This document shows, piece by piece, positions 4,492 to 60,409 of a stretch of DNA of 64,000 nucleotides (positions within the stretch are counted from its first letter, which is position 1; each line of letters starts with the position of its first letter). The stretch spans positions 1 through 64,000 of the IMG/VR virus record IMGVR_UViG_3300033143_004581; one strand, given 5' to 3'. This DNA is from a virus. The notes under the pieces are model-generated. The model was not told the origin of the DNA. It saw only the letters and a program-made list of their open reading frames with translations, and made no database searches. Made by a program: the position numbers and the translations under genes.

Positions 4492-5592
4492 ATGTCATTA
4501 TATCATAAATTAAATGAAATTTTAGACAAATCCGATAATGAAACTGTTTATGATTTATATACCTGTGGTTGTAGATTATACTTGAATGATTCGTTCTTTA
4601 AATACAGATTAACACTACTTGGTAGCACTAATTATGTAATTAAAATAGTTTGTAGTAATAGCCATTTATTAGCTATCAATGATTTAGGTGAATTATATGC
4701 TTGTGGTGAAAACACTTACGGTCAATTAGGATTAGGTGACAAAGAAAATAGATCAACACCAACAAGAATAGGAAGCAAATCTAATTGGAAGGAAATATCT
4801 TGTGGTGAATATCATTCACTTGCTATAAATGATCGTGGTGAATTATATGCCTGGGGTAGTAATTGTTATGGTCAATTGGGCTTGGGTGATGAAGAAGATA
4901 GATTAATACCAACGCGAATTGGAAACAGATCAAATTGGGTTAAAATATCTTGTGGTAGATATCATTCACTTGCTATTAATGATCGCGGTGAATTATATTC
5001 CTGGGGTCGTAATTATCATGGTCAATTATGTTTAATCAATATGAAAAATAAGTTAGAACCAACACTAATAAAAAATATATCTAATTGTGTTAATATGTCT
5101 TGTGGTGAATTTCATTCGTTAGCTATTAATAATCGCGGTGAATTATACGCTTGGGGATATAATTATTATGGTCAATTAGGATCAGGTGATAGAACAAATA
5201 GATCAACTTTAACGCGAATTGGAAGTAAATCAAATTGGAAGGAAATATCTTGTGGTGTGTTTCATTCATTTGCTATAAATGATCGTGGTGAATTATATGC
5301 TTGTGGTAGTAATTATCATGGTCAATTGGGATTAGGTGATAAAAAAGATAGATTAATACTAACACAAATATGGAACAAATCAAATTGGGTTAAAATATCT
5401 TGTGGTAGATATCATTCATTGGCTATTAATGATCGCGGTGAATTATATTCCTGGGGTAGTAATTATCATGGTCAATTGGGCTTGGGTGATAAAATAGATA
5501 GATTAACACCAACGCTATTAGAAAAAGAATCAAATTTAATAGAAGTATATGCTGGTAGTGTTTGTTCATTTTTGTTGAAGAAGCATGAATAA
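4492..5592 (+). CDS. RCC1-repeat beta-propeller protein, paralogue 1
   Basis: 366 residues. After a conserved leader (MSLYHKLNEILDKS...TVYDLY) it consists of seven RCC1 blades of about 51 residues, each with the pattern ISCG-x-YHSLAINDRGELYAWG-x-N-x-x-GQLGLGD-x-x-x-R-x-x-PT. In eukaryotes and bacteria this fold is a seven-bladed propeller used as a protein-binding scaffold (for example RCC1 on Ran and chromatin, and some bacterial effectors). There is no signal peptide or membrane segment. The fourth blade is degenerate (GQLCLINMKNK). AAAGGAAAATAAAAATG serves as ribosome binding site. First of five tandem paralogues; its target is unknown. Confidence 0.9.
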   Translation: MSLYHKLNEILDKSDNETVYDLYTCGCRLYLNDSFFKYRLTLLGSTNYVIKIVCSNSHLLAINDLGELYACGENTYGQLGLGDKENRSTPTRIGSKSNWKEISCGEYHSLAINDRGELYAWGSNCYGQLGLGDEEDRLIPTRIGNRSNWVKISCGRYHSLAINDRGELYSWGRNYHGQLCLINMKNKLEPTLIKNISNCVNMSCGEFHSLAINNRGELYAWGYNYYGQLGSGDRTNRSTLTRIGSKSNWKEISCGVFHSFAINDRGELYACGSNYHGQLGLGDKKDRLILTQIWNKSNWVKISCGRYHSLAINDRGELYSWGSNYHGQLGLGDKIDRLTPTLLEKESNLIEVYAGSVCSFLLKKHE

Positions 5593-5604
5593 AGGAAAAT
5601 AAAA

Positions 5605-6687
5605 ATGTCATTGTATTATAAAACAAATGAAATTTTGGATAGATTTAATAATGAAACCATTTATGATTTATATGCTTGTGGGTATGAATCGAATTTAAAA
5701 GGTTTGTCTTTTGGGTCAAAATTAATATTACTTGATAGTATTAATGGTGTAATTAAAATATTTTGTAGTAATTATCATTTGTTAGCTATTAATAATCGTG
5801 GTGAATTATACACTTTGAATTATAATAGTAAAGATAGTATAATATCACGGGTTGGGAATGAATCAAATTGGGTTAAAATATCTTGTGGAAGATATCATTT
5901 ATTAGCTGTCAATGATCATGGTGAATTATACACTTGGGGGTATAATATTCATGGTCAATTGGGTTTAGGTGATAAAGAATATAGATTAGAACCAACACAA
6001 GTAGGAAGCGAATCAAATTGGAAAGAAATAGCTTGTGGTGAGAGTCATTCATTAGCAATAAATGATCGTGGTGAATTATATTCTTGGGGTCGTAATTATT
6101 ATGGTCAATTGGGTTTGGGTAATAGAGAATATAGATTAATACCAACACGAGTTGGAAATAGTTTGAATTGGGTTAAAATAGCTTGTGGGAGACATCATTC
6201 ATTAGCTATTAATGATCGTGGTGAATTGTATGCTTGGGGTGATAATTATTATGGTCAATTAGGCTTGGGTGATATTTTAAATAGATTAGAACCAACGCGA
6301 GTTGGAAGTGAATCAAATTGGAGAAAAATAGCTTGTGGTGAATATCATTTATTGGCTATTAATGATCGCGATGAATTGTATGCTTGGGGTCGTAATTATT
6401 ATGGTCAATTGGGATCTGGTGATGAAATAGATAGATCAGAACCAACACGAGTAGGAAATGAATCAAACTGGAAAAAAATTGCTTGTGGTCGGTCCCATTC
6501 ATTAGCCATTAATGATCGTGGTGAATTGTATGCTTGGGGTAATAATACTCGTGGTCAATTAGGATTAGGTGATAAAATAAGTAGATCAACACCAATACGA
6601 GTAGGAAGCAATTCAAATTGGGTAGAAGTGTATGCTGGTAGTTTTTGTTCTTTTTTGTTAAAGAAACATGAGAATAAAGGAAAATAA
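5605..6687 (+). CDS. RCC1-repeat beta-propeller protein, paralogue 2
   Basis: 360 residues, the shortest copy. Blade 2 has lost the GQLGLGD turn and reads LYTLNYNSKDSII, while the other blades are regular. The last residues, KKHENKGK, read through into what is the ribosome binding site of the next gene because of a two-base difference from copies 1 and 3. Spacing to copy 1 is 12 nt and to copy 3 is 2 nt, so the array is certainly one transcript. A 54-nt stretch at 6482-6535 is identical to 9822-9875 in copy 5, a sign of sequence exchange between copies. Confidence 0.9.
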   Translation: MSLYYKTNEILDRFNNETIYDLYACGYESNLKGLSFGSKLILLDSINGVIKIFCSNYHLLAINNRGELYTLNYNSKDSIISRVGNESNWVKISCGRYHLLAVNDHGELYTWGYNIHGQLGLGDKEYRLEPTQVGSESNWKEIACGESHSLAINDRGELYSWGRNYYGQLGLGNREYRLIPTRVGNSLNWVKIACGRHHSLAINDRGELYAWGDNYYGQLGLGDILNRLEPTRVGSESNWRKIACGEYHLLAINDRDELYAWGRNYYGQLGSGDEIDRSEPTRVGNESNWKKIACGRSHSLAINDRGELYAWGNNTRGQLGLGDKISRSTPIRVGSNSNWVEVYAGSFCSFLLKKHENKGK

Positions 6688-6689
6688 AA

Positions 6690-7790
6690 ATGTCATTATA
6701 TCATAAACCAAATGAAATTTTAGACAAATCTGACAATAAAACAGTTTATAATTTATATGTTTGCGGATATGAATCAGGCTTTAATAGTTTGTTTACATGG
6801 ACTCAATTAACTTTACCCGGTAGTGTTGATAATATAATTAAGATTGCTTGTGGTGGGAATCATTCATTAGCTATCAATGATCGTGGTGAGTTGTACGCTT
6901 GGGGTTATAATGATTATGGTCAATTAGGATTAAGTGATAATGAAAATAGATCAGAACCAACACGAGTTATAGATAAATCTAATTGGTCTAAAATAGCTTG
7001 TGGCTACGATTATTCATTGGCTATTAATAATTTAGGTGAATTATATGCCTGGGGTTATAATAGTTTTGGTCAATTAGGTTTGGGTGATGAAGAAAATAGA
7101 TCAATACCAACGCGTGTAGGAAATAAATCAAATTGGAAAAAAATAGCTTGTGGATTGTGTCATTCATTAGCTATAAATGATTTAGGTGAATTATATGCCT
7201 GGGGTTATAATGATTGTGGTCAATTGGGATTAGGTGATAATGAAAATAGATCAACACCAACACGAGTTGGAAGTGATTCAAATTGGGTTAAAATATCTTG
7301 TGGTTATGATTATTCATTAGCTATTAATGATTGTGGTGAATTGTATGCTTGGGGTGATAATTATTATGGTCAATTGGGTTTGGGTGATAATGAAGATAGG
7401 TTAACATTAACACGAGTAGGAAATGAATCAAATTGGAAAGAAATAGCTTGTGGATGGTGTTATTCGTTAGCTATCAATGATCGTGGTGAATTGTATGCTT
7501 GTGGTAATAATGATTGTTGTCAATTGGGTTTGGGTGATAAAGAATATAGATCAGAACCAACACGAATAGGAAATGAATCAAATTGGAAGAAAATAGCTTG
7601 TGGTGGATATCATTCATTAGCTATTAATAGTTTGGGTAAATTGTATGCTTGGGGGTATAATGGTGATGGTGAATTAGGATTGTGTGATAGAGAAGATAGA
7701 TTAACACCAACAAGGGTAGGGAATGATTCAAATTGGGTTTGTATATATACTGGTAATTTTTGTTCCTTTTTGTTAAAAGAACATGAATAA
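6690..7790 (+). CDS. RCC1-repeat beta-propeller protein, paralogue 3
   Basis: 366 residues and the most regular copy: the YAWG and GQLGLGD elements are preserved in nearly every blade, with IACG in place of ISCG. Surface positions just before the SLAIN strand vary between blades and copies (YDY, LCH, WCY, GYH), which is where a propeller would present its binding face. An 87-nt block at 6996-7082 is identical to 8259-8345 in copy 4. Confidence 0.9.
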   Translation: MSLYHKPNEILDKSDNKTVYNLYVCGYESGFNSLFTWTQLTLPGSVDNIIKIACGGNHSLAINDRGELYAWGYNDYGQLGLSDNENRSEPTRVIDKSNWSKIACGYDYSLAINNLGELYAWGYNSFGQLGLGDEENRSIPTRVGNKSNWKKIACGLCHSLAINDLGELYAWGYNDCGQLGLGDNENRSTPTRVGSDSNWVKISCGYDYSLAINDCGELYAWGDNYYGQLGLGDNEDRLTLTRVGNESNWKEIACGWCYSLAINDRGELYACGNNDCCQLGLGDKEYRSEPTRIGNESNWKKIACGGYHSLAINSLGKLYAWGYNGDGELGLCDREDRLTPTRVGNDSNWVCIYTGNFCSFLLKEHE

Positions 7791-7802
7791 AGGCAAATAA
7801 AA

Positions 7803-8915
7803 ATGACATTGTATTATAAAACAAATGAAATTTTAGATAAAATTAACAATGGAACCGTTTATGATTTATATACTTGTGGTTGTAAATTAAATTCTGATGG
7901 TTCATTTACCTGGACTCAATTAACTTTACTCGGTAGTGTTGATAATACAATTAAGATTGCTTGTGGTTTTAATTATTCATTAGCTATTAATAATGATAAT
8001 AATTTATATGCTTGGGGTAATAATTATTATTATCAATTGGGTTTAGGTGATAGAGAATATAGATTAGAACCAACACAAGTAGGAAGCGAATCAAATTGGA
8101 AAGAAATTGCTTGTGGTGGATATCATTCATTGGCTATTAATAATCGTGGTGAATTATATGCTTGGGGTGATAATAATCATGGTCAATTGGGATTGAGTGA
8201 TAGAGAATATAGATTAATACCAACGCGAGTAGGAAATAGTTTGAATTGGAAAAAAATTGCTTGTGGCTACGATTATTCATTGGCTATTAATAATTTAGGT
8301 GAATTATATGCCTGGGGTTATAATAGTTTTGGTCAATTAGGTTTGTATGATAGAGAAGATAGATTAATACCAACACGAGTAGGAAATGAATCAAATTGGA
8401 AAAAAATAGCTTGTGGTTATAATCATTCGTTAGCTATTAATGATCGTGGTGAATTATATGCTTGGGGTCGTAATGATTATGGTCAATTAGGTTTAGGTAA
8501 TGAAGAAAATAGATTGACACCAACACGAGTAGGAAGCGAATCAAATTGGGTTAAAATAGATTGTGGTTATGATCATTCATTAGCCATTAATGATTGTGGT
8601 GAATTGTATGCCTGTGGTCATAATAATCATGGTCAATTAGGATTAGGTAATAATGAAAATATGTTAACACCAACAATGGTAGGGAATGAATCAAATTGGA
8701 AAAAAATAGCTTGTGGTAGATATCATTCGTTAGCTATTAACAATAATAATAAATCATATGCTTGTGGTCGCAATTACTATTGTCAATTAGGAATATATGA
8801 TAGAGAAGATAGATTAATGTTAACACGAGTAGGAAATGAATCAAATTGGTCGGAAGTATATGCTGGTGATTTTTATTCATTTTTGCTAAAAGAACATAAA
8901 AATAAAGGCAAATAA
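7803..8915 (+). CDS. RCC1-repeat beta-propeller protein, paralogue 4
   Basis: 370 residues. Blade 1 carries NNDNNLYAWGNNYYYQLGLGD and blade 7 NNNNKSYACG, asparagine-rich variants of the usual NDRGELYAWG. The C-terminus ends KEHKNKGK as in copy 2. The N-terminal region is closest to copy 3 (TWTQLTL-GSVDN), and later blocks match copies 2 and 3, so the gene looks like a mosaic. Confidence 0.9.
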   Translation: MTLYYKTNEILDKINNGTVYDLYTCGCKLNSDGSFTWTQLTLLGSVDNTIKIACGFNYSLAINNDNNLYAWGNNYYYQLGLGDREYRLEPTQVGSESNWKEIACGGYHSLAINNRGELYAWGDNNHGQLGLSDREYRLIPTRVGNSLNWKKIACGYDYSLAINNLGELYAWGYNSFGQLGLYDREDRLIPTRVGNESNWKKIACGYNHSLAINDRGELYAWGRNDYGQLGLGNEENRLTPTRVGSESNWVKIDCGYDHSLAINDCGELYACGHNNHGQLGLGNNENMLTPTMVGNESNWKKIACGRYHSLAINNNNKSYACGRNYYCQLGIYDREDRLMLTRVGNESNWSEVYAGDFYSFLLKEHKNKGK

Positions 8916-8917
8916 AA

Positions 8918-10024
8918 ATGACATTATATTATAAACCAAATGAAATTTTAGATAGATCTAATAATGGAACCGTTTATGATTTATATGCTTGTGGATATAA
9001 ATTGAATCCAGAAGATTTATATTTTGTACCAGAATTAACATTAATTGATAGTATTAATAACATGATTAAAATATCTTTTAGTAGTAACCATTTATTAACT
9101 ATCGATGGTTCCGGTAAATTGTATGCTCGTGGTTTTAATGTTTATGGTCAATTAGGATTTGGTGACACAATAAATAGATCATTACTATCACAAGTAGGAA
9201 ATTCTACAAATTGGATTGAAATTGCTTGTGGTTATAGTCATTCATTAGCTATTAATGATCGTGATGAATTGTATGCTTGGGGTAATAATATTTATGGTCA
9301 ATTAGGATTAGGTGATAAAATAAGTAGATCAACACCAACACGAGTAGGAAATGAATCGAATTGGAAGAAAATTGCTTGTGGATTATATTATACTTTAGCA
9401 ATAAACAATCGTGGTGAATTGTATGCTTGTGGTTATAATGGTGATGGTCAATTGGGATTAAATAATTATATTAGTAAATTATCGTTAACACGAGTAGGAA
9501 GTGAATCAAATTGGGTTAAAATAGCTTGTGGTGGATATCATTCGTTAGCTATCAATGATTCTGGTGAATTGTATGCTTGGGGTTATAATGATGATGGTCA
9601 ATTAGGATTAGGTGATACAAAAAGTAGATCAACACCAACACGAGTAGGGAATGATAATTGGAATGAAATATCTTGTAATGGATATCATTCGTTAGTAATA
9701 AACAATCGTGGTGAATTATATGCTTGTGGTTATAATGATGATGGTAGATTGGGATTAGGTGATACAGAAAGAAGATTATTACCAACACGTGTAGGAAATG
9801 AATCGAATTGGAAAAAAATATCTTGTGGTCGGTCCCATTCATTAGCCATTAATGATCGTGGTGAATTGTATGCTTTTGGTGATAACTATTGCGGTCAATT
9901 AGGATTTGATGATAGAGAAAATAGGTTAACACCAACACGTGTAGGAAATGAATCAAATTGGGTCGAAATATATGCTAGTAACATTTATTCTTTTTTTGTT
10001 AAAAAAAATATAATAGTTACATAG
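8918..10024 (+). CDS. RCC1-repeat beta-propeller protein, paralogue 5
   Basis: 368 residues, the last and most divergent copy. The first blade is altered (ISFSSNHLLTIDGSGKLYARG), one blade has a one-residue deletion (VGNDNWNEI) and the C-terminus has lost the KEHE ending shared by the others (VKKNIIVT instead). No terminator is visible between it and the metallophosphoesterase gene 70 nt downstream. Confidence 0.9.
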   Translation: MTLYYKPNEILDRSNNGTVYDLYACGYKLNPEDLYFVPELTLIDSINNMIKISFSSNHLLTIDGSGKLYARGFNVYGQLGFGDTINRSLLSQVGNSTNWIEIACGYSHSLAINDRDELYAWGNNIYGQLGLGDKISRSTPTRVGNESNWKKIACGLYYTLAINNRGELYACGYNGDGQLGLNNYISKLSLTRVGSESNWVKIACGGYHSLAINDSGELYAWGYNDDGQLGLGDTKSRSTPTRVGNDNWNEISCNGYHSLVINNRGELYACGYNDDGRLGLGDTERRLLPTRVGNESNWKKISCGRSHSLAINDRGELYAFGDNYCGQLGFDDRENRLTPTRVGNESNWVEIYASNIYSFFVKKNIIVT

Positions 10025-11351: not shown

Positions 11352-11513
11352 ATGAATAATCCAATAAATGATTACGATTATTTTTCAAAATGGTATGATG
11401 AAAAAGAAAAAGAATTTCATACTTGTGTATTAAGCAAAAAAGAAATGGTCTATTCGGCTTTTCTTGAAGGAATAAAATATTGTAAAATGAAAAAAGGGGA
11501 AATGATAATTTGA
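11352..11513 (+). CDS. Small protein before clamp loader
   Basis: 53 residues (MNNPINDYDYFSKWYDEKEKEF...). Acidic first half, basic end (KYCKMKKGEM). Starts 30 nt after the tRNA-Leu CCA end and its stop codon overlaps the TTG start of the clamp-loader gene, so it is probably the leader gene of the replication operon. No family recognised. Confidence 0.6.
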   Translation: MNNPINDYDYFSKWYDEKEKEFHTCVLSKKEMVYSAFLEGIKYCKMKKGEMII

Positions 11514-12400
11514 CTGATATATGGACTTTTAAATATGAGCCAAAAACATTAAAAGATATGATCCTTGAACCTGAATTAAGAAAAAAACTTAATAAGGTAA
11601 TTAAGGATATACCTAATTTTATGCTTTATGGACCAGCCGGTGTTGGTAAAGGAACATTTACAAAAATTCTTTTAAATAAAACTAAAATTGATTATATCTG
11701 GATAAATGCTTCCGATGAAACAGGAATTGATACCATTCGTGGTAAAGTCAAGAGCTTTGCTACCGCAAAAGGCGTAACACCTTTGAAAATGGTTGTTTTT
11801 AATGAAGCATCCGCTCTTTCAAAAGGTGAATCTGGTTCACAAAAAATCTTAAAACAACTAATAGAAGATGTTTATAAAGTTACAAGATTTTGTTTCTTGT
11901 TTAACGAAGAACATATGGTTATTCAAGAACTAAAATCTCGATGCAGTACATTCAAAATCGGATCACCTCCAGCAAAAGATATATTCAATTTCTGTACTAA
12001 AATTTTAAAAAATGAAAAAATTAAATTTGACAATAAAACTATTGTTGAAATTATTAGAAAATGTTATCCAGATATTAGAAAGACAATTCAAACATTACAA
12101 GAAAACTCAATAAATGGAAAATTGATAAGTAGTGGTGTATATGAGCCAAAAACATATGAAGATGTTTTAAATTATATGAAGAATCAAAATTTTGATGAAA
12201 TTCGCAAAACTCTCAGAAGTGGTGAAATTGATTATGTTGGTTTCTATAAATTCTTATTCGATAATGTTGGTGAATTTAAAAGCCCAGGTGATGCTATCAT
12301 TTTAATAGGTGAACATCTTCATAGGCATAATGTTTCATATATTCCAGAAATTAATTTTATGCATATGTATATGAGAATGTTGAAACAGGGAATGATATAA
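11510..12400 (+). CDS. 44: Sliding clamp loader ATPase subunit (T4 gp44-like)
   Basis: 296 residues, an AAA+ protein of the RFC/gp44 class (T4 gp44 has 319). Walker A is GPAGVGKG near residue 42, the Walker B position reads NEAS instead of DExx, and the arginine-finger SRC motif follows near residue 146; the C-terminal helical collar is present (FPDIRKT-type sequence YPDIRKTIQ). It would assemble with gp62 to load the gp45 clamp on primer ends. Start is TTG, overlapping the upstream stop, with GGGG about ten nt before it. The gene is followed directly by 62 and 45. Confidence 0.9.
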   Translation: MTDIWTFKYEPKTLKDMILEPELRKKLNKVIKDIPNFMLYGPAGVGKGTFTKILLNKTKIDYIWINASDETGIDTIRGKVKSFATAKGVTPLKMVVFNEASALSKGESGSQKILKQLIEDVYKVTRFCFLFNEEHMVIQELKSRCSTFKIGSPPAKDIFNFCTKILKNEKIKFDNKTIVEIIRKCYPDIRKTIQTLQENSINGKLISSGVYEPKTYEDVLNYMKNQNFDEIRKTLRSGEIDYVGFYKFLFDNVGEFKSPGDAIILIGEHLHRHNVSYIPEINFMHMYMRMLKQGMI

Positions 12401-12843
12401 TGGGGTTTAAAGATTTACCGAAAGTAACTGAATCAAAAGAAGTTGAAGAAAAATACAATGGACCAACTATATTTCAACTTCTTTATAAGATTTTCACAAA
12501 ATCAAATAAACATGAATATAAAGGAGAAGTTATAAAGAAAAACACTACGTTTCTTATGAATTTATGGCTTTCTCATGAAAATGATTTGATACCAATTTTA
12601 AATGAAATTACAAGAACAGATCTAAATTTAACAAATAATAAAGAAAAAATTATATTCGAATACTTGATGAATAAAGTACCTAAAGGTAAAAATAGGTTTA
12701 TCAAGTATGCTAAAAAAAATAAAAAAGATTTACAAAAAGAAAAAAGAATAGTAGAATTAACAGAAAACTATAAAACTATATCCAAAACAGAAGCAACAAA
12801 TATAGTGAATTCTCTTGAAAGATTAAGTGAGAAAAAACAATGA
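12400..12843 (+). CDS. 62: Clamp loader small subunit (T4 gp62-like)
   Basis: 147 residues. The conserved stretch FEYLMNKVPKGKNRFIKYAKK matches the FNYLM..VPRGKRYGKWAK region of T4 gp62. Rather short compared with T4 (187). The start ATG shares its A with the stop codon of 44 (TAATG), and the stop overlaps the start of 45 (ATGA), so the three genes are translationally coupled. Confidence 0.8.
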   Translation: MGFKDLPKVTESKEVEEKYNGPTIFQLLYKIFTKSNKHEYKGEVIKKNTTFLMNLWLSHENDLIPILNEITRTDLNLTNNKEKIIFEYLMNKVPKGKNRFIKYAKKNKKDLQKEKRIVELTENYKTISKTEATNIVNSLERLSEKKQ

Positions 12844-13574
12844 ATATTAATACAAAAAATTTTATTGATTTTATAAAAAAAGCAACAATGAATTACAGTA
12901 TTGAAACTGTAAGGATGAATTTTACTAAAGAAGGAAGAGTGAAAACAAGAATGACAACATCCAGCCATGACGCAATTGTCATTCTCGACATTGAAAATAA
13001 TATTTTAGACGAAAACGATGAATTAGAGTTCAATTTCAGTGAACCAAGTAAGAATATTGTACCATTATTGAAATTATTCAATGAACATTCAAAAATCAAA
13101 ATAAATGATTCAAAGATTTATATAAATGATGGTAATCAAAATACAAAAATATTTTTTTGTTCACCAAGAATAGTAAATATTTTTGATAGAGAATTTGCTG
13201 ATGATTTTGATTATTTTTTTGAAATATATATGTCAAATATCATTACAGAAATTTTATCTATTAAAAAAATAGGACAAAGATTTGGTAAAATTTATTTTAC
13301 TGTAAAAAACGAAGAATTGTTTATTGAATCAACTGATAAATCAAATAGATATTCAAATGTTTTGAGTTACAAAATTTATAAGGTTAATGGTACAGATGAT
13401 CTTGAAATGGCAATAAATTATAAAAATTTTATTAACTTGATGTCAATTATTGGCGAAAACATAGAAGATTTTATTTTAAAACTTTCTTATGATAAAGAAA
13501 GTGAAAGAGGATTAGTAACAGTAACATCAAAAGATTATTGTGAAAAATATTTTATTCAAACATGTGAATTGTAA
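12840..13574 (+). CDS. 45: Sliding clamp / DNA polymerase processivity factor (gp45-like)
   Basis: 244 residues (T4 gp45 has 228). Recognised by position, length and clamp-like pattern: an N-terminal MNINTKNFIDFIKKA strand-helix, a long FNFSEPSKNIVPLLKLFNEH helix and alternating beta strands in both halves. It would form a ring that tethers polymerase to DNA and, in T4, also activates late transcription through gp33/gp55. In T4 the order is 45-44-62, whereas here the clamp comes last and is followed by the ubiquitin-like cassette. Confidence 0.82.
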   Translation: MNINTKNFIDFIKKATMNYSIETVRMNFTKEGRVKTRMTTSSHDAIVILDIENNILDENDELEFNFSEPSKNIVPLLKLFNEHSKIKINDSKIYINDGNQNTKIFFCSPRIVNIFDREFADDFDYFFEIYMSNIITEILSIKKIGQRFGKIYFTVKNEELFIESTDKSNRYSNVLSYKIYKVNGTDDLEMAINYKNFINLMSIIGENIEDFILKLSYDKESERGLVTVTSKDYCEKYFIQTCEL

Positions 13575-13634: not shown

Positions 13635-13907
13635 ATGGAAGAATATGATGAGGTTTGGTCAACAAGAGACGAAAGTAACGAATCGGAAACCGAATTTACT
13701 GGTACTGGTATTGTTGTTAATGGTTCATTTTTCTCAGTTGAAAGCGGAAGTAATTTCAAGGAAGAGATTTCAAAAGTCACTGAAAATGTAGGTCTTGGGA
13801 AGTTCAAGGTCTATCTGAATGGTGAAAAAATCAAACCTTCCGAAGCACCTTCAACATTTGAAGAAGGAATGAAGGTTGAAATTGTTCCTTATGATATTGC
13901 TGGTTAA
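13635..13907 (+). CDS. Ubiquitin-like (beta-grasp) modifier protein
   Basis: 90 residues. An acidic flexible tail (residues 1-22, containing DEVW) precedes a beta-grasp pattern: hairpin GTGIVVNGSFFSVE, helix NFKEEISKVTENVG, strand KFKVYLNGEKI, and final strand MKVEIVPYDIAG. It ends exactly at Ala-Gly, where ThiS, MoaD and ubiquitin end in Gly-Gly, so no processing may be required. AGGAGGATAATAAC is the strongest ribosome binding site nearby. Genes for E2-, E1- and JAMM-like proteins follow, as in bacterial ubiquitin-like operons (for example the PRTRC and Bil types). A terminator isolates it from them, suggesting higher expression of the modifier. Confidence 0.8.
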   Translation: MEEYDEVWSTRDESNESETEFTGTGIVVNGSFFSVESGSNFKEEISKVTENVGLGKFKVYLNGEKIKPSEAPSTFEEGMKVEIVPYDIAG

Positions 13908-13926
13908 AAAATATCATAATCTGTAA

Positions 13927-13958
13927 AACACCCACTGTTTTTACAGTGGGTGTTAATT
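13927..13958 (+). terminator. Intrinsic terminator after the ubiquitin-like gene
   Basis: AACACCCACTGT (13927-13938) pairs perfectly with ACAGTGGGTGTT (13943-13954) around TTTT; AATTTG follows. The T-run is short, so some read-through into the downstream enzyme genes is likely. Confidence 0.75.
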
Positions 13959-13983
13959 TGTATTTTTATTTAAAGGAATAAAA

Positions 13984-14838
13984 ATGAAAGAGTTACAAGA
14001 ATTACAAGAAACAAGGGAAAAAATTATAGATTATATCAATAAAATTGATATTTCAGATGTTAAATCAAATGAAATTTCAATTCGTATTGGTAATGAAGTA
14101 ATTGTTTTTTCTCAATCCAATAAATATAATCTTTCTTCAATAGAAGAAGAAATTCGTGAAGAATTAAAAGATAAGGTAAATGAAAAATTAAAGGCTATTG
14201 GTGAAAAATTAAAAGAGCGCATTGAATACGCCTCTAATATGATTGATACTTATAAAAGCACTTATGAAATAGAAAAGAAAAAATTAGAGGAAAAAATTAA
14301 AAATGCTTTTATCATGCCTGAAATCACATTAGAGCATGCTAAAAAGGGTCTTTCTGTTGTCAGAGGAAATAGAAATGATGAATTTATATGGATTATGAAT
14401 GGTGTCTATAATCCAAAATTTGTTGACAAAAGAATGATCGAAAAGAAGTATAGATCAATGATGTTAACACAAATTGTGTTTCTTGTAACAACAAAAAACG
14501 ATAAAGTTACTGGTTTGGATATTGTAAAACCAATTGGATTAGGAAGATTTGATCATTATCATACCGGTTGTTGGGGTGATTTTAAATATTCAAGAAAATG
14601 GTCAACACCTGATGATATAATTCAATTAGTAAAAGAAGCAGAAATTGTTCTCGAAACAATCAATTCAATGTCGCTTGCTGATAGATCGCCTGAAAATTTG
14701 CCTCGTTTTTCTACTTTAAAAAACCATCTACTAAACGAAGGTGAAAGTGACGGTGAATCAATATCAAACAAACATCTTCTAAGAGCAGGTGTGACGGAAT
14801 CATCAAGAAACGATTCAGATGAGGTATGGGGATCATAA
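13984..14838 (+). CDS. E2-like conjugating protein with N-terminal coiled coil
   Basis: 284 residues. Residues 50-110 are a charged coiled coil. The C-terminal part has the arrangement seen around the active site of ubiquitin-conjugating enzymes: GRFDHYHTGCWGDF with candidate catalytic Cys196 shortly after His191/His193, then W-S-T-P (206-209) and a long helix DIIQLVKEAEIVLETIN followed by SP. That resembles HPN-x-C...W-x-P...helix of E2 and PRTRC-type E2-related proteins. The C-terminal tail contains SDEVWGS, echoing the DEVW of the modifier. Its stop codon abuts the E1 start. Identification is from pattern only. Confidence 0.6.
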   Translation: MKELQELQETREKIIDYINKIDISDVKSNEISIRIGNEVIVFSQSNKYNLSSIEEEIREELKDKVNEKLKAIGEKLKERIEYASNMIDTYKSTYEIEKKKLEEKIKNAFIMPEITLEHAKKGLSVVRGNRNDEFIWIMNGVYNPKFVDKRMIEKKYRSMMLTQIVFLVTTKNDKVTGLDIVKPIGLGRFDHYHTGCWGDFKYSRKWSTPDDIIQLVKEAEIVLETINSMSLADRSPENLPRFSTLKNHLLNEGESDGESISNKHLLRAGVTESSRNDSDEVWGS

Positions 14839-15444
14839 ATGAACGAAATTTTATCAAGACAAAACTATATTGATTTGGATAAAGACCAATCTATCATAAT
14901 TGTTGGTTGTGGTGGAATTGGTTTTTGGGTTGCAAAAATGGCAGCAATGTCTGGTATAAATAAAATTCGCCTCTTTGATTCTGATGTTCTCGATATAACA
15001 AATTTGAACAGAATAGATCTGCCATTGAAATTTCTTAATAAAAATAAAGCCGATATAACAAAACTTGTTATAAAACAAATTAGACCAGATTGTGATGTTA
15101 TATCTTTCCCGTTTAATTTCAATGAAACATTTGCTAGTATGTTAGACGGAACATATGATTGGTTAATTGATTGCACAGATAAGATATCATCACAAGAGAA
15201 AAATGAAAAAATAGCTATTAGTGAAGAATGGAAATATATGAAAGCCGGTTATGATGGTGAAAACTTCTCAATTTCAAATGAAGTTGCTGATTGGGGTGAA
15301 TTTCAGGATGGTTATTCTATAACACCATCTTGGGTTGTTCCAGCAGTTATTGTATCTTCTTTAACAATAGCTAAAATAATGAAGTATAAAAACGCTGAAG
15401 TTTGTTCTGATGTTAAAAATGTTTTTAACTCAAAAAGAGGATAG
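14839..15444 (+). CDS. E1-like (ThiF/MoeB) adenylyltransferase
   Basis: 201 residues, a minimal ThiF-fold domain. Nucleotide-binding loop GCGGIG at 23-28, acidic DSDVLDITNLNR at 47-58 (Asp, Asn and Arg that bind ATP and the modifier tail), and DCTDK at 111-115. It should adenylate the C-terminal glycine of the modifier. The usual catalytic cysteine domain is absent; Cys112 and Cys189 near the C-terminus are the candidates for a thioester, or transfer may go directly to the E2-like Cys. ATG begins directly after the previous TAA; the JAMM gene begins two nt after its stop. Confidence 0.88.
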   Translation: MNEILSRQNYIDLDKDQSIIIVGCGGIGFWVAKMAAMSGINKIRLFDSDVLDITNLNRIDLPLKFLNKNKADITKLVIKQIRPDCDVISFPFNFNETFASMLDGTYDWLIDCTDKISSQEKNEKIAISEEWKYMKAGYDGENFSISNEVADWGEFQDGYSITPSWVVPAVIVSSLTIAKIMKYKNAEVCSDVKNVFNSKRG

Positions 15445-15446
15445 AA

Positions 15447-16235
15447 ATGGAAAGAAATAAAATGGCCAAAAATAGGAAATATAACATGAAAATCGAAGAT
15501 GATTTTTGGGAAAATGATATCAAAGAAGTTAAAGAATGTAGTAAAGCACCAGAAGAATTAAAAATTATAATGAATATTCTGCCTGCTCAAAAAATAAAAC
15601 TTTTGAATGAAAAATTCAAAAACATTGAATGGTTGGCTTATTTGGTCGGTGATGGATTAGAAGTTAAAGATTTATATATTCCTTATCAAGAAGTTTCGTC
15701 TGTTACGGTTGATAATATCAAATCACCAGAATATAATAGAATGAATATCATAGGTGTTATACATTCTCACCATAATATGAATAATTCATTTTCTGGTACA
15801 GATGATGAATATATCAATAAAAACCATGATATATCAATTTGTGTAAGTTCAAATATGAACATGAATGCTCAAGTAAGATGGAAAACACCTTGTGGTTCTA
15901 TAAAAATAATTAAAGGTGTTGTTGATATTATTTATGATAAAGATATCTCATGGGTTGAAGAATTTCTTGAAGAAGTTGATAAAAGAATAAAGAAAAAGTT
16001 CATCAATTTATCAGGCATATATCATGACTGGCAGTCATATAAAAATCACCTCCATAATAATCAAAAATTAATCGACGATTATGATTACGATTACGATTAC
16101 GATTATGATTTTAATGATGATGATTATAATTTTAATGATGATGGTATAGAAGAAATTGATGATGTAATAAATAACATGACAATTGATAAAGAAATGGAAT
16201 TATATAAAGATATGATGTTGGATGATGATGAATAA
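15447..16235 (+). CDS. JAB/JAMM metalloprotease (deubiquitinase-like)
   Basis: 262 residues. A complete JAMM signature is present: Glu61 (EWLAYLVG), H106-S-H108, seven residues, Ser116, two residues, Asp119. Such zinc peptidases remove ubiquitin-like modifiers or trim their precursors. The N-terminus has an acidic-Trp stretch (EDDFWEND) like those in the modifier and E2-like protein. The C-terminus has a Tyr-Asp repeat (DYDYDYDYD) encoded by GATTAC-type repeats at 16079-16110, then Asn/Asp-rich sequence. Ribosome binding site AGAGGA five nt before ATG. The last gene of the cassette, closed by a bidirectional terminator. Confidence 0.9.
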   Translation: MERNKMAKNRKYNMKIEDDFWENDIKEVKECSKAPEELKIIMNILPAQKIKLLNEKFKNIEWLAYLVGDGLEVKDLYIPYQEVSSVTVDNIKSPEYNRMNIIGVIHSHHNMNNSFSGTDDEYINKNHDISICVSSNMNMNAQVRWKTPCGSIKIIKGVVDIIYDKDISWVEEFLEEVDKRIKKKFINLSGIYHDWQSYKNHLHNNQKLIDDYDYDYDYDYDFNDDDYNFNDDGIEEIDDVINNMTIDKEMELYKDMMLDDDE

Positions 16236-16260
16236 AAAAGGGGGTTAACCCCCTTTTTTT
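16234..16260. terminator. Bidirectional terminator
   Basis: AAAAAAGGGGGTTAACCCCCTTTTTTT is a perfect palindrome with A-run and T-run on opposite sides. It ends both the ubiquitin-like cassette (plus strand) and the convergent HExxH gene (minus strand). Confidence 0.9.
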
Positions 16261-16930
16261 ATTGCATTGTTTCTATATATTTCAATAATCTTTTCATAAA
16301 TTTCTTAAAAACCAAATTATTTTTACCAAATGTTTCAACATATCTTCTATATGTTTTAGACCCCTCAAGTTTACTTGTCCTTAATACTTCTATTGAAGCC
16401 TGATATGCAAAAGCATCCAATTCTTCTGGTATTGCTAAATAAGTTTCATCATATTCATAATCACCTGGTCCATATTTTTGTGTAAATTTATCACCAGATT
16501 TTGATGCTTGTTTTATATGAACAACTTCATGTGATAACAAATCTAATAAATCTTGTAAAAATTGATTTTGTTTTATATTATAAAATTTTGATACATTTTT
16601 AGCAAACCTTTTAAAATAACTAGAAAAACCTTTTACAACACCAATTTCAACAAAATATTTTGTATCATTTTTTTCTGTATCTGTTATTATCCATGCTTTA
16701 GCATAACTGATATACTTCTTTATTTTCTTACTTTTACCATGTTTTGATAATAAAAATATTATATTATATCTACTAAATGTTCCATTTAATATCTTTATCA
16801 TCATATCATCATTAACATTCCAACCATGTTTTATCATAACTCTACCAACATTTCCTATAGAATTATTTATTATTTTAATAACTCTATCTATTATTCTATC
16901 TCTATGAATAAATCTTTCTAATCTAGACAT
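16259..16930 (-). CDS. Putative HExxH zinc metallopeptidase
   Basis: 223 residues from the ATG at 16930, chosen because GGAG lies seven nt upstream; an in-frame codon 28 residues earlier would lie at the predicted transcription start. Zinc signature SHEVVHIKQ (His134, Glu135, His138) with a possible third ligand in IPEELDAFAY (Glu169/170). The N-terminus is rich in Arg and Ile (RLERFIHRDRIIDRVIKIINN). No signal peptide. The substrate is unknown. The only minus-strand gene in the first 22 kb, it has both an early-type promoter and two late-type TATAAATA boxes. Confidence 0.65.
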   Translation of the reverse strand: MSRLERFIHRDRIIDRVIKIINNSIGNVGRVMIKHGWNVNDDMMIKILNGTFSRYNIIFLLSKHGKSKKIKKYISYAKAWIITDTEKNDTKYFVEIGVVKGFSSYFKRFAKNVSKFYNIKQNQFLQDLLDLLSHEVVHIKQASKSGDKFTQKYGPGDYEYDETYLAIPEELDAFAYQASIEVLRTSKLEGSKTYRRYVETFGKNNLVFKKFMKRLLKYIETMQ

Positions 16931-16961
16931 ATAATCTCCAATTCTATAAAAAATATTATAA

Positions 16962-16981
16962 TATTTATATAAATATTTATA
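16962..16981 (-). promoter_or_regulatory. Pair of T4-type late promoter boxes
   Basis: TATAAATA on the minus strand at 16962-16969 and again at 16974-16981, 30-50 nt upstream of the HExxH gene. TATAAATA is the -10 consensus recognised by T4 gp55-RNA polymerase. AT-richness makes chance matches plausible. Confidence 0.5.
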
Positions 16982-17018
16982 TAAAATGCTTATATTTTCC
17001 CCGCGCGAACCCATGCAT

Positions 17019-43237: not shown

Positions 43238-44770
43238 TTATTTTTTCTCCTTATCAAGAATTATATCACTAGTAAAATCACCATCTTTTTTATCAATAAC
43301 AAATATAACACTTTTATTATCAACTATTGTTTTCAATAAAACCTTTTTACCCCATATATTATAAATATGTTTCATTGTTTCTTCAGCATATTTCAAATTT
43401 AAATTAACACCACTCCATTCATGATTAAGAAACAATTCACCTCTTTCTGAATAATTTCCATCAACCACAGTTATTTTAGGAATTCCATTATTAGAAAATA
43501 ATGATACTATTAACCTTTTAATATCTTTTGCATCACTATCTGTAATAATATAATCTTCATGGGTTCCTGTATCATGTATTACATAAACATACATTTTAAG
43601 ATCTTTGATCAATTCTGGTGTTAAGAAATCCTGCATGAAGAACCAATCAGTATATTTTTCTAAAACTGAAAGAACCTTTTCCCATCCTTTATTTTCACCA
43701 GTATCCCATTCTTCTTTCTTCTTTTTATTTGTTTCTTCTTCATATTCTCTACCATGTCTTCCTTTATCCCATCTTTTTATAATATCTTCCCATATTTTAG
43801 ATCCGATAAGATAAGGATTCATACTAAATGGATTTTCAGCTTTTACAAGTGAATTGGAATAATTAAATTGTGCATGTTCGCTTGTTGTAAGAATATTTTC
43901 ATCAAACAATTTATTCATAATATATTCATGAACTATTACAGCAAATCCCTCATTCATGAATTTTGTATTAATAATTGGCCAATAATATTGACCAAGTGTT
44001 TTAATAACCTTTAAAATATCAATGGACCAATTATCAAGTATTCGTGATCTGTCTATAATATATTGTAAAATATCATCTGTTGGTTCTACTGGTGTTCTTG
44101 TGTTCAAATCTTTCCATAGATTTTGATTAAAAAGTTCTATATCAGATTCTATTACAGGCTTATTTCTTATACCTGAAAGTATTCCAAATTGTGATGTATC
44201 TGACTTATGAGCTTCCTTTCTTTCTTGTTCATATATTCTTTTAATTTTTTGTTCTTCTGTTTCGTTATCAAAAGGATTAGTGTGTAAATACAGTGAATGA
44301 GCAGCATCTACAATCTTTTCAACTTCATCTATACCATATTTTTTCTCATACTTGTTAAATCTTTCCTTGGCATCAAACATATAATCAATAATATCTTTTT
44401 TAGAATTTTTAAAATATTCATTCATTGTAAAAAATGAAGTATGACCAATAACATGGGCCATAACAAGAACTTGTACAGCAAAAGTATTTGATTTCATTAA
44501 ATAAGCTCTTGCTGGATCTGAATTTATCACAACTTCATATGGTAAAGAAGGATTAACATTCTCATTTATTGTTCTCAATCGTTCATAATCTCTACCATAT
44601 TTCCAGTTAGAAATGTTAGTTGGGATATTATACGACATAATTTCTAACATTTTTTGATCAGGAACAATATCAAATTCAACAGGACAAGTCTTTAATTTTA
44701 AATCCTCTGTCGCTATTTGCATTATTCGTTCTTCGATTTTTAATAGTCTCTGAAGTTCTTGTTTATTCAT
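43238..44770 (-). CDS. spoVR: SpoVR family protein (YcgB-like)
   Basis: 510 residues, the same length as E. coli YcgB. Conserved stretches include FDIVPDQKMLEIMSYN, HVIGHTSFF (with the family's His motif), NEGFAVIVHEYIMNKL and NPFSMNPYLIGSKIWEDI. The biochemical role of SpoVR is unknown; in bacteria it is nearly always encoded with PrkA (YeaG) and YeaH, as here. Start overlaps the stop of the inserted homing endonuclease by eight nt. Confidence 0.93.
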   Translation of the reverse strand: MNKQELQRLLKIEERIMQIATEDLKLKTCPVEFDIVPDQKMLEIMSYNIPTNISNWKYGRDYERLRTINENVNPSLPYEVVINSDPARAYLMKSNTFAVQVLVMAHVIGHTSFFTMNEYFKNSKKDIIDYMFDAKERFNKYEKKYGIDEVEKIVDAAHSLYLHTNPFDNETEEQKIKRIYEQERKEAHKSDTSQFGILSGIRNKPVIESDIELFNQNLWKDLNTRTPVEPTDDILQYIIDRSRILDNWSIDILKVIKTLGQYYWPIINTKFMNEGFAVIVHEYIMNKLFDENILTTSEHAQFNYSNSLVKAENPFSMNPYLIGSKIWEDIIKRWDKGRHGREYEEETNKKKKEEWDTGENKGWEKVLSVLEKYTDWFFMQDFLTPELIKDLKMYVYVIHDTGTHEDYIITDSDAKDIKRLIVSLFSNNGIPKITVVDGNYSERGELFLNHEWSGVNLNLKYAEETMKHIYNIWGKKVLLKTIVDNKSVIFVIDKKDGDFTSDIILDKEKK

Positions 44771-46436
44771 TTATATCCCTTTCATATTCAAATAATATAT
44801 TACCACAATCCCATATTCTATGATAATTATTTTCTATCATATTTTCATATTCTGTTAGATTGGGATCAAATTTTTCTAATATTTTTGATAATCTATCCTT
44901 TCTAAAATTAAACCTATGATATCTTTTACATTCACTTTTATTAAAATACCAATAATTTGGCTTAGTATTATGAACAAATTTAAAATTTAAAATATTATAT
45001 AGATTTCCATTACTCCATCTTCTATCAGCAAATGAAATAATTTTATCAAAATTATAATTTTTTAAAAAATAATTAAATAATTTAGAGGCAGATCCAACAA
45101 TTATATATTCATAATCTGAACAAAATCTACTTAATTCAAAACAATATTTCAAATTAGGATTATGGCCTTTAGATATATTTAATTTTCTAAAAGTCATCAC
45201 AGAAACAAGATTTTCATTATAAAAAAGACCTAATCGTATAGAAGAAAAATCATCACCTTGTATATGAAATTTATTCAAAAAATCTGATTTTACTTTGTTA
45301 CTAATTTCTTTAACTTCACATTTTCTAGCGAATAATTTTTTTGAATTATTTAAATTAATATTATACAGTATTCTTTTTTCAACAATATCTCTTTTAAACA
45401 ACCACTCATCTTCAAATATTGTTATAAGTCTATATCCGGCTTTGTTACATAAATCCAATTTGTTTAGATGATAATTCTTATCATTTATGTTTGTTTCCGA
45501 ATGCCAGTATAAACCACAATATTCTATTGCTGTCTTTTTATCTGGTATTACAATATCTAATTCAAATGGACTAATTATATTCCTATCTCTTTTTAATATA
45601 TCACCATTATACACGCTTTTTAAAAAAAAGTATATTTCGTTTTCTGCTTTTGATTCTATATGTGAACAAGATGGACATCTTGTTCCTTGTTGCCAACTAT
45701 TCCATATAATTTTATTAATATGACCTATAGGACATTTATATTTTAAATAAGAAAAAGCATTATCATATGTTTTTGATAATAATTCATATCCTTCTTTTTC
45801 AAATTCGCTTTTTATGTATTCGTAATCATGTTTGTTTATCAAATTTCTTTTTTCATCATAGCAAAATTTACATCTTGATCCACTAATCCAACTATTCCAA
45901 GATATATATCCTATATGATTATTATTACACCTATATTTTAATTTTTCCTTGTTATTTTCATATGTTTTTGATAATAATTCATATCCTTCTTTTTCAAACC
46001 CACTTTTTATATATTCGTAATCATGTTTTATATTACCATTACATATATAACACCTACATCCTCTTTTCCAACTGATCCAAGTTATAAAATACTCATGACC
46101 ATTAGGACAAATATATCTTAATTTGGTATTATTACCTTCAAACTCATCTATACTTGTTAATAATTTATATCCTTCCTTTTCAAAATTACTTTTTATTTTA
46201 TCATAAAATGCTTTTTTTCTTTTATATTTTTTTTCAATATTTCTACAAAATGGACACTTTTCCTCATTTCTATTCCACTTTATCCATTTTATAAAAAACA
46301 CATGATTATTCTTACATAAACACTTTAAATCAATTTTATTATTTTCATATTCCTTGGATAAAAGAAAATAACCAGCTTTTTCTATTTCATTCTTTACATA
46401 ATCATATGACAACTTATTCACTACATTTTCCTTCAT
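44763..46436 (-). CDS. Free-standing homing endonuclease (Vsr-like, multi zinc finger)
   Basis: 557 residues. Residues 1-260 are about five tandem fingers of roughly 65 residues (EKEGYELLSKTYEN...LKYRC-x4-H...WNSWISGSRCKFC). The catalytic part, PFELDIVIPDKKTAIEYCGLYWHSE...YHLNKLDLCNKAGYRLITIFEDEW, is the Vsr-like EDxHD homing nuclease signature. A C-terminal domain ends KILEKFDPNLTEYENMIENN, almost the same as in the 50410 gene. It is inserted between yeaH and spoVR with overlapping start and stop codons, so it does not break the operon. Confidence 0.85.
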   Translation of the reverse strand: MKENVVNKLSYDYVKNEIEKAGYFLLSKEYENNKIDLKCLCKNNHVFFIKWIKWNRNEEKCPFCRNIEKKYKRKKAFYDKIKSNFEKEGYKLLTSIDEFEGNNTKLRYICPNGHEYFITWISWKRGCRCYICNGNIKHDYEYIKSGFEKEGYELLSKTYENNKEKLKYRCNNNHIGYISWNSWISGSRCKFCYDEKRNLINKHDYEYIKSEFEKEGYELLSKTYDNAFSYLKYKCPIGHINKIIWNSWQQGTRCPSCSHIESKAENEIYFFLKSVYNGDILKRDRNIISPFELDIVIPDKKTAIEYCGLYWHSETNINDKNYHLNKLDLCNKAGYRLITIFEDEWLFKRDIVEKRILYNINLNNSKKLFARKCEVKEISNKVKSDFLNKFHIQGDDFSSIRLGLFYNENLVSVMTFRKLNISKGHNPNLKYCFELSRFCSDYEYIIVGSASKLFNYFLKNYNFDKIISFADRRWSNGNLYNILNFKFVHNTKPNYWYFNKSECKRYHRFNFRKDRLSKILEKFDPNLTEYENMIENNYHRIWDCGNILFEYERDINE

Positions 46437-50409: not shown

Positions 50410-51849
50410 ATGATAATAAGAAGAAACGATTTTGGAAATATTGATGATTTGTCACAAAATTCCCACAAAAAAATATGGTTTACCTGTGAAAAATGCGGCA
50501 TTGGTGTTCTTCAATCTTATAGAAACTATTTAAAACAAAAAAATGGTAAACTTTGTAGATATTGTAGAAATTCAATAACATCAAATAATTCAAGAAAAAT
50601 AGTATCAGAAAAAATGAAGGAGAAATGGAAGAATGTAGAATATAAAAGAAAAATGAGTAAAAAATTATCAGACGCGTGTAAAAAATCATGGGAAAATGAT
50701 AATGGTAAAAGAAGAAAAAATTTAATAAAAAACAATCCCATGTTTGATAAAAAAATATCTAAAAAAGTATCAGAATCAGAAGCAACATCAATAGAAGAAT
50801 TAAAAAAATTATGTGAATATTATAATTATGAATTTATAGAAAGAATTTTAGGAAAACGTGGTGGTGTTGTTATAAAATTTAAATGTGATAAGGGACATAT
50901 ACAAGAAAAAAGACTAGATGTTTTCAAAAGAGGATCTTATGGTTGTTATGAATGTAATAAAAAATCATCAGTTGGTGAAAATGAAATATATAAGTTCTTA
51001 AAAGAAAATAATATAAAAGTAGATAAAAATTCAAAATCAATAATATATCCATTTGAATTAGATATTGTAATACCAAATAAAAAAATAGCAATAGAATATT
51101 GTGGTTTATATTGGCATTCAGAAACAGTAAAAAGAGATAAAAATTATCATTTAAATAAATTAAATTTATGTAATGAAGCTGGATATAGGCTTATAACAAT
51201 ATTTGAAGATGAATGGAAAAATCATCAAAATTTAATAAAAAATAAATTATTACATATACTTGGAAAATCAAACAGTGAAAAAATATATGCTAGAAAATGT
51301 GAAATAAAAGAAATTGAAACAAAAACAGCAAGAAATTTTTGTAATGAAAATCATATACAAGGATATAACAATTGTTCTATAAAATTGGGATTATATTATA
51401 ATAAAGAATTGGTTTCTTTAATGACATTTTCAAAACCATCTTTATCAAAAGGATATAAAGGAAAAAACGAAAACATTTGGGAGCTCAATAGATATTGTAC
51501 TAATAAAATAGTTATTGGTGGTGCTGGTAAGCTGTTAAATTATTTTTGTAATAATTATGAATGGAAAGAAATTTTTTCATTTGCTGATAAAAGATGGAGT
51601 GATGGGAATTTATATAATAAATTAGGATTTGAATTATTATATGAAACAAAACCAAATTATTTTTATTTCAATACAATTGATAACAAAAGATATCATAGAT
51701 TTAATTTTAGAAAGGATAGATTACCAAAAATATTAGAAAAATTCGACCCAAATCTAACAGAATATGAAAATATGATAGAAAACAATTATCATAGAATATG
51801 GGATTGTGGTAATTTTAAATTTGTTAAAACAAAAGAACCAAGGCCATAA
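50410..51849 (+). CDS. Free-standing homing endonuclease (Vsr-like with NUMOD3-like region)
   Basis: 479 residues on the strand opposite to its neighbours, inserted between the major capsid and 16-like genes. N-terminal finger (FTCEKCGIG...CRYCRN), then MKEKWKNVEYKRKMSKKL...NPMFDK, a NUMOD3-like DNA-binding stretch, a second finger (FKCDKGHI...CYECN), and the EDxHD nuclease part YPFELDIVIPNKKIAIEYC-GLYWHSE...ITIFEDEW. The C-terminal 170 residues are close to those of the 44763-46436 gene, so the two share ancestry but have different DNA-binding front ends. Confidence 0.85.
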   Translation: MIIRRNDFGNIDDLSQNSHKKIWFTCEKCGIGVLQSYRNYLKQKNGKLCRYCRNSITSNNSRKIVSEKMKEKWKNVEYKRKMSKKLSDACKKSWENDNGKRRKNLIKNNPMFDKKISKKVSESEATSIEELKKLCEYYNYEFIERILGKRGGVVIKFKCDKGHIQEKRLDVFKRGSYGCYECNKKSSVGENEIYKFLKENNIKVDKNSKSIIYPFELDIVIPNKKIAIEYCGLYWHSETVKRDKNYHLNKLNLCNEAGYRLITIFEDEWKNHQNLIKNKLLHILGKSNSEKIYARKCEIKEIETKTARNFCNENHIQGYNNCSIKLGLYYNKELVSLMTFSKPSLSKGYKGKNENIWELNRYCTNKIVIGGAGKLLNYFCNNYEWKEIFSFADKRWSDGNLYNKLGFELLYETKPNYFYFNTIDNKRYHRFNFRKDRLPKILEKFDPNLTEYENMIENNYHRIWDCGNFKFVKTKEPRP

Positions 51850-60403: not shown

Positions 60404-60409
60404 AATAAA

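Follow-up and report, generated by a model that had tools for sequence, protein, structure and literature searches.

The window analysed here is a 64,000-nucleotide stretch that makes up most of a 67,130-base virus record (IMGVR_UViG_3300033143_004581). It belongs to a phage of bacteria with T4-like genes, among them those for the major head protein, portal, tail sheath, terminase, a DnaB-type helicase and a DNA helicase. Directly 3′ of its gene for a gp45-like sliding clamp, at positions 13635-16235, lie four successive + strand open reading frames (ORFs) for a ubiquitin-like modifier (Ubl), an E2-like protein, an E1 enzyme and a JAB protease. A preliminary description of the DNA had placed four consecutive ubiquitin-pathway-like genes here, in the replication region of a T4-like phage, and both statements hold: the ORFs are present on the + strand and the gp44-gp62-gp45 genes are immediately upstream.

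The clamp loader is encoded by genes for a gp44-like large subunit (11510..12400, +; phrog_168, 1.8e-61) and a gp62-like small subunit (12400..12843, +; Pfam Phage_clamp_A, 5.8e-4, under the cut-off), and the gp45-like clamp gene follows at 12840..13574 on the same strand (phrog_223, 9.3e-7); all three assignments also draw on synteny in relatives. A gap of 60 bases separates the clamp gene from the start of the Ubl gene. The cassette and the clamp and clamp loader genes are all on the + strand, and the genes for head and tail are found elsewhere, on the − strand.

Proteins of the cassette

The first gene (13635..13907, +) encodes a 90-aa protein with a disordered, acidic N-terminus containing EVWS, a predicted beta-grasp core at about residues 25-86 and the C-terminus ...YDIAG, as expected from the beta-grasp modifier ending in Ala-Gly that had been described. 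Its AlphaFold model, with a predicted local distance difference test score (pLDDT) of 77.8 (79-90 in the core), has the element order bb-a-bb-b. The 50 best Foldseek matches in the PDB were overwhelmingly ubiquitin-fold proteins (SUMO, ubiquitin, ThiS, TtuB and Ufm1 among them), with E values of 0.01-0.1, template modelling scores of 0.4-0.6 and, for most, probabilities of 0.9-1.0. The model and its matches give moderate support to a beta-grasp fold. An A-G near the C-terminus was found in 22 of 23 Ubl sequences from the lineage, followed by 0-5 variable residues; the exception (L144) ends in ...ASAS. Such a dipeptide with a short tail is the usual mark of a Ubl precursor, and the C-terminal Gly would suit adenylation.

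The second gene (13984..14838, +) encodes a 284-aa protein containing ...FDHYHTGCWG..., with a predicted coiled coil (residues 50-107), strand meander (123-181), helix (209-222) and disordered tail. In its model the loop H191-Y-H193..C196-W-G198 is preceded by the meander and followed by the helix, and this predicted order of strand meander, Cys loop and helix is that of E2s. C196 and H193 are invariant (23/23 and 33/33 ungapped sequences), H191 has one exception in each set (22/23 and 32/33) and H248, downstream of Cys196, is present in 21/23. The histidines H106 and H108 named in the preliminary description belong to the JAB protein and not to this one; those of the E2-like protein are H191 and H193. 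Neither the Ubl nor the E2-like protein gave a convincing family match in scans with Pfam, PHROGs and other profile libraries.

All T4-like E2-like members carry a short tail of the [DE]xVW[ST] type at the C-terminus. An acidic-VW/YW motif also occurs near the start of many Ubls (in the window, ...SDEVWGS in the E2-like protein and MEEYDEVWS in the Ubl), which suggests a docking partner common to the E2 end and the Ubl start. The idea that the E2 motif is a clamp-binding peptide was rejected; the family-B polymerases of the lineage end in FFG/FFN/FFS-type sequences, not VWST.

The third gene (14839..15444, +) encodes a 201-aa E1-like adenylation enzyme of the ThiF/MoeB type with GCGGIG, DSDVLDITNLNR and DCTD. 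It matches Pfam ThiF at 2e-24 with intact adenylation motifs, confirming the earlier ThiF-fold assignment, and its PDB matches include TcdA, MccB, NAE, Cap2 and MoeB. R7, GxGGxG, D47, D49, N55, R58, K70, D111 and D114 are invariant (22 and 33 sequences), and N57 has one exception. The crossover-loop position is occupied by Ser164 in 33/33 sequences of the T4-like lineage and by Cys in 39/39 and 32/32 sequences of the phage groups A and B described below. Cys112 and Cys189, once proposed as active-site cysteines, were rejected: Cys112 is within the DCTD adenylation motif and Cys189 is not conserved. A tblastn search of phage and plasmid sequences with the window E1 returned mostly ordinary TcdA/MoeB-like genes.

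The fourth gene (15447..16235, +) encodes a 262-aa JAB/JAMM metalloprotease with EW...HSHHNMNNSFSGTD and an acidic low-complexity C-terminus. It matches Pfam Prok-JAB at 2.8e-6 (27.6 bits against a 25-bit cut-off). The site E...HxH-x7-S-x2-D is complete, as had been reported, and its residues E61, H106, S107, H108, S116 and D119 are invariant in 24/24 and 36/36 sequences.

Distribution in T4-like and other phages

Relatives were first found with a DNA pattern for the JAMM sequence HSHHxMxxxFSGTD, which matched at least 119 viral contigs, several of them with all four proteins in closely related form. Scans of viral contigs with E1 or gp44 as the lone query gave no matches; the JAMM pattern, followed by alignment queries, succeeded. 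The E2 alignment query retrieved 26 viral loci, together with one contig of a bacterial metagenome-assembled genome identical to one of the 26, and the gp44 query retrieved 78 loci. These two sets overlap, many of their loci coming from the same contigs. The order gp44-gp62-gp45-Ubl-E2-E1-JAB on a single strand was seen in 26/26 E2-selected loci (one of which is cut before E1 by the contig end). All four genes were present in 38 gp44-selected loci, in identical order in every one, and five further loci end with the contig after Ubl or E2. The cassette was not seen in the more distant gp44 relatives (~28-33% identity) among the 78 loci. The preliminary description had staked its reading on a conserved gene neighbourhood in related phages, which these loci provide (26/26 selected by E2, one of them cut, and 38/38 full loci selected by gp44).

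The recurrence of the four genes in the same order and on the same strand behind the clamp gene is far beyond chance, and the catalytic residues are unchanged among relatives whose proteins are only 27-54% identical to those of the window. Its presence is nearly all-or-none, six loci having none of the four genes, and the cassette thus behaves as a single unit tied to one position, common across the lineage though some members do without it. Variants of the arrangement were also observed. In L195 and L196 (10920-12662), adjacent ORFs of 329 and 248 aa before E1 both match the E2 profile, reflecting a duplication or a split gene, and in L194 (5317-8369) ORFs of 364 and 217 aa occupy the place expected for E1 and JAB.

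Comparable cassettes are present in at least three phage lineages, all among replication and recombination genes, so that the find is larger than the preliminary description reported. Lineages were grouped by clustering of contigs, and the two further groups comprise 54 (group A) and 46 contigs (group B). Group A, which includes crAss-like phages, has the order DnaB - ATPase - primase - Ubl - E2 - JAB - E1 - UDG/exonuclease. A complete Ubl-E2-JAB-E1 example is gp79-gp76 of the cultured gut phage crAss001, where E1 is annotated as a thiamine biosynthesis protein, JAB as a metalloprotease-domain protein and both Ubl and E2 as hypothetical. Flavobacterium phages such as Fpv1 also carry the group A cassette. 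In Fpv1 (L167, 3223-3972) an endonuclease gene on the opposite strand splits the JAB gene, the downstream piece of which starts exactly at LIHSH of the JAMM motif; the arrangement resembles a homing insertion that hit the most conserved site. The group B order is Ubl - E2 - JAB - E1 - Sak4-like ATPase - primase/helicase.

In the Ubls of groups A and B an S-G is conserved close to where the presumed beta-grasp stretch finishes, with 0-184 residues after it; the gp79 Ubl of crAss001 contains ...KKIKSGAMSR.... The E2-like proteins of both groups are long and have H-x-H...C-x-G as their chief invariant residues. The pattern H-x-H-x(2,20)-C-x-G occurs in 91 of 107 E2-like proteins and, among 569 other ORFs of 250 aa or more, in 6. 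Profile comparison across the three lineages found E1 and JAB to be clearly homologous, and the E2s of groups A and B look related.

Several features beyond the cassette were seen in the window and in related loci. Five tandem ORFs of 360-370 aa (4492-10024, +), the first matching phage families of the RCC1 type (regulator of chromosome condensation) and the last having RCC1-like repeats, are probably five beta-propeller paralogs. Just past the JAB gene, on the opposite strand (16259-17014, −), a 251-aa ORF with an HExxH sequence (HEVVHIKQ) is probably metallopeptidase-like, and a GH108 endolysin follows at 17071. Beside the portal gene (57767-63613, −) lie a very large glycosyltransferase-methyltransferase (1067 aa) and a sulfotransferase-like protein (878 aa), which possibly serve glycan modification. 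Two related HNH homing endonucleases are found amid structural genes (44763-46436, −, and 50410-51849, +). In two relatives (L156/L162 and L157/L161) the family-B DNA polymerase appears to be divided between two ORFs ~1.3-1.4 kb apart, probably through insertion of a homing endonuclease.

A putative conjugation pathway and competing explanations

We consider it reasonably probable (about 0.6) that the four genes constitute a compact, reversible ubiquitin-like conjugation pathway which is part of the replication module of this T4-like lineage. In phages that encode a Ubl extension, JAB would begin by cutting the precursor back to its C-terminal Ala-Gly, a role suggested by the unbroken JAMM site and by the conserved A-G with its variable tails. 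The E1, of ThiF type and presumably homodimeric, would adenylate the Ubl C-terminus, as its conserved adenylation residues imply, and Ubl would then be handed to the E2-like protein at Cys196. Since the crossover-loop position of the E1 is an invariant Ser164 and not a Cys, the E2 cysteine probably attacks the Ubl-adenylate directly, or else an E1 oxyester intermediate might be formed. By way of its coiled coil or its C-terminal VW motif, the E2 might put Ubl on a target amine, and JAB would take the modifier off again. Conceivable targets are most likely phage replisome or DNA-metabolism proteins, with the adjacent sliding clamp as first candidate, because of synteny with the clamp and clamp loader in T4-like phages and with primase, helicase and recombination genes in the other lineages. 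The conserved residues of gp45 were checked for a possible acceptor lysine; K14 and K143 alone are close to invariant, and this has no diagnostic value. The interpretation offered in the preliminary description is partly supported overall; conjugation itself, like the choice of acceptor protein, is our inference.

A number of observations weigh against this pathway. Of the earlier assignment of the 284-aa protein as an E2, the H-x-H-x2-Cys pattern stood, with Cys196 invariant, and the fold was not confirmed: its model had no significant Foldseek match to E2s (UFC1 only at E 1.8), the E2-family profiles matched no known E2 in the PDB and there was no significant hidden Markov model match. We call it a candidate E2 of unproven fold because of its position in the cassette, the H-x-H...C-x-G signature common to two other phage cassettes and the predicted strand order. 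In the profile comparison both the T4-like E2 and the T4-like Ubl are linked to groups A and B only at the level of motifs. The T4-like E1 has no conserved thioester Cys, which is also compatible with a sulfur-carrier role. The six gp44-selected loci without any of the four genes extend more than 5 kb beyond gp45, and L194 has only Ubl and E2, with no detectable E1 or JAB. Finally, no E3 or substrate gene is visible, and synteny being the sole argument for the replisome as the site of the substrate, this part of the proposal is speculative.

If the Ubl were a ThiS/MoaD/CysO-like sulfur carrier, E1 would make a C-terminal thiocarboxylate and JAB would free the product as in CysO/Mec+, with the 284-aa protein accepting or transferring sulfur. 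The MoeB/ThiF architecture of an E1 that has no conserved thioester Cys and the presence of ThiS among the best fold matches of the Ubl are in keeping with this scheme, but we regard it as improbable: the neighbours are clamp and clamp loader genes, genes for sulfur metabolism or tRNA thiolation do not recur there, the set includes a fourth protein whose H-x-H...Cys motif is invariant, and the crossover Cys of E1 is kept in the parallel cassettes of other phages. It is somewhat less improbable, if still unlikely, that E1, Ubl and JAB form a minimal direct-conjugation system like that of the small archaeal modifier proteins (SAMP), with the 284-aa protein as substrate or adaptor. Its model has a long coiled coil and is without a fold match to E2s, and the E1 resembles MoeB/UbaA-type enzymes. 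Against an E2-free system stand the invariant Cys of the H-x-H-x(n)-C-x-G signature, with a predicted helix after it such as E2s have, and the occurrence of this signature at the equivalent cassette position in two other lineages.

Other explanations keep the conjugation pathway and move its target. Bacterial E1/E2/JAB systems serve antiphage defence, and Bil conjugates a Ubl to hinder phage assembly (Millman 2022 and Hor 2024, cited in PMC13373217); the phage might accordingly modify or de-modify a host immune protein of CBASS (the cyclic-oligonucleotide-based antiphage signalling system), Bil or the like instead of its own replisome, and loss of the cassette in some related phages would fit such a role. 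The fixed site in a core replication operon of nearly all lineage members, and not in a variable anti-defence region, makes this as unlikely as the E2-free system, and the cassettes of other phages are likewise in replication modules. The least credible of the alternatives is that the target of the modifier is part of the virion or a structural protein, or that Ubl and JAB aid assembly like the lambda TAPI/TAPK tail genes. Ubl and JAB pairs are known from tail clusters of lambdoid phages (PMC1779556), but the present set includes an E1 and an E2-like protein and lies with the clamp and clamp loader genes on the + strand, the genes for head and tail being elsewhere, on the − strand.

Returning to the conjugation pathway within the replication module, a wider and more doubtful proposal, which we hold to be possible with the odds against it, is that several tailed-phage lineages run their own reversible Ubl pathway on replisome proteins (in T4-like phages, perhaps the clamp). 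This would be a viral parallel to PCNA ubiquitination and SUMOylation, its E2 divergent (H-x-H...C-x-G) and its E1, in T4-like phages, having Ser for the catalytic Cys. Phages may, in other words, tag proteins while copying their genome, much like our own cells. The bacterial Ubl pathways of known function act mainly in antiphage defence. A complete phage pathway in a core replication operon, with versions in crAss-like phages, would if true make Ubl signalling a viral tool too. Cultured phages such as crAss001 render two questions testable, namely which non-defence targets a prokaryotic Ubl pathway has and how an E1 lacking a catalytic cysteine hands its Ubl over to E2. In the literature searched, outside of which lie most subscription papers and preprints, we found no description of a cassette of this kind among phage replication genes, and its novelty is probable.

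Comparison with known systems

The type 6d bacterial operon is the nearest described kind to the phage cassette. Like the cassette, it unites in one operon a stand-alone Ubl with a C-terminal Gly, an E2-like protein, a ThiF-type E1 and a JAB protein. We equate the type 6d operon (Iyer et al. 2006) with the PRTRC cassette. Groups A and B are weakly similar to the PRTRC_ThiF and PRTRC_A models. In the window none of the PRTRC NCBIfam models scored above its cut-off (PRTRC_A 12.5 against 101.8 bits, no match to B or C and none to PRTRC_ThiF), and no ParB-like protein was found in Pfam and PHROGs scans of ten cassette and flanking proteins. The type 6d E2 is without the upstream His and has a downstream His (PMC1779556), whereas the phage E2-like protein has the conserved H191 and H193 upstream of C196. 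The phage cassette further differs in the Ser at the crossover Cys position of E1, in its order Ubl-E2-E1-JAB, in its core replication locus and in that no fifth helical gene was seen there.

Bil (BilABCD) likewise encodes Ubl, E2, JAB and E1 in four genes, and groups A and B also match its Ubl-E2-JAB-E1 order. BilA has two Ubl domains, BilD has an inactive and an active adenylation domain and a Cys domain, and BilB has a CEHH motif (PMC11354881). In contrast, the window, which is phage DNA, has a single 90-aa Ubl, a 201-aa E1 that lacks a Cys domain and an H-x-H before the Cys. Type II CBASS is similar in that the E1 adenylation domain is related to Cap2 and that a JAB protease (Cap3) is present. 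However, Cap2 fuses E1 to E2 and has the CD-NTase itself as its conjugation substrate, whereas the phage has separate E1 and E2-like proteins and a beta-grasp modifier. The PADLOC E1-E2 models cover the window E1 in the E1 part only, and the genes scanned around the cassette included no CD-NTase.

Lambda TAPI (Ubl) and TAPK (JAB) also pair a phage-encoded beta-grasp protein with a JAB peptidase, but these are tail assembly genes that come without E1 or E2, whereas the window set is in a replication operon. MoeB/MoaD, ThiF/ThiS and UBA5/UBA4/ATG7 share with the phage set a minimal adenylation enzyme and a small beta-grasp partner, to which the phage set adds an E2-like protein and a JAB protease. 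In ATG7, a noncanonical E1, the catalytic cysteine sits on the crossover loop (PMC12355090), at the position that is a serine in the T4-like phage E1.

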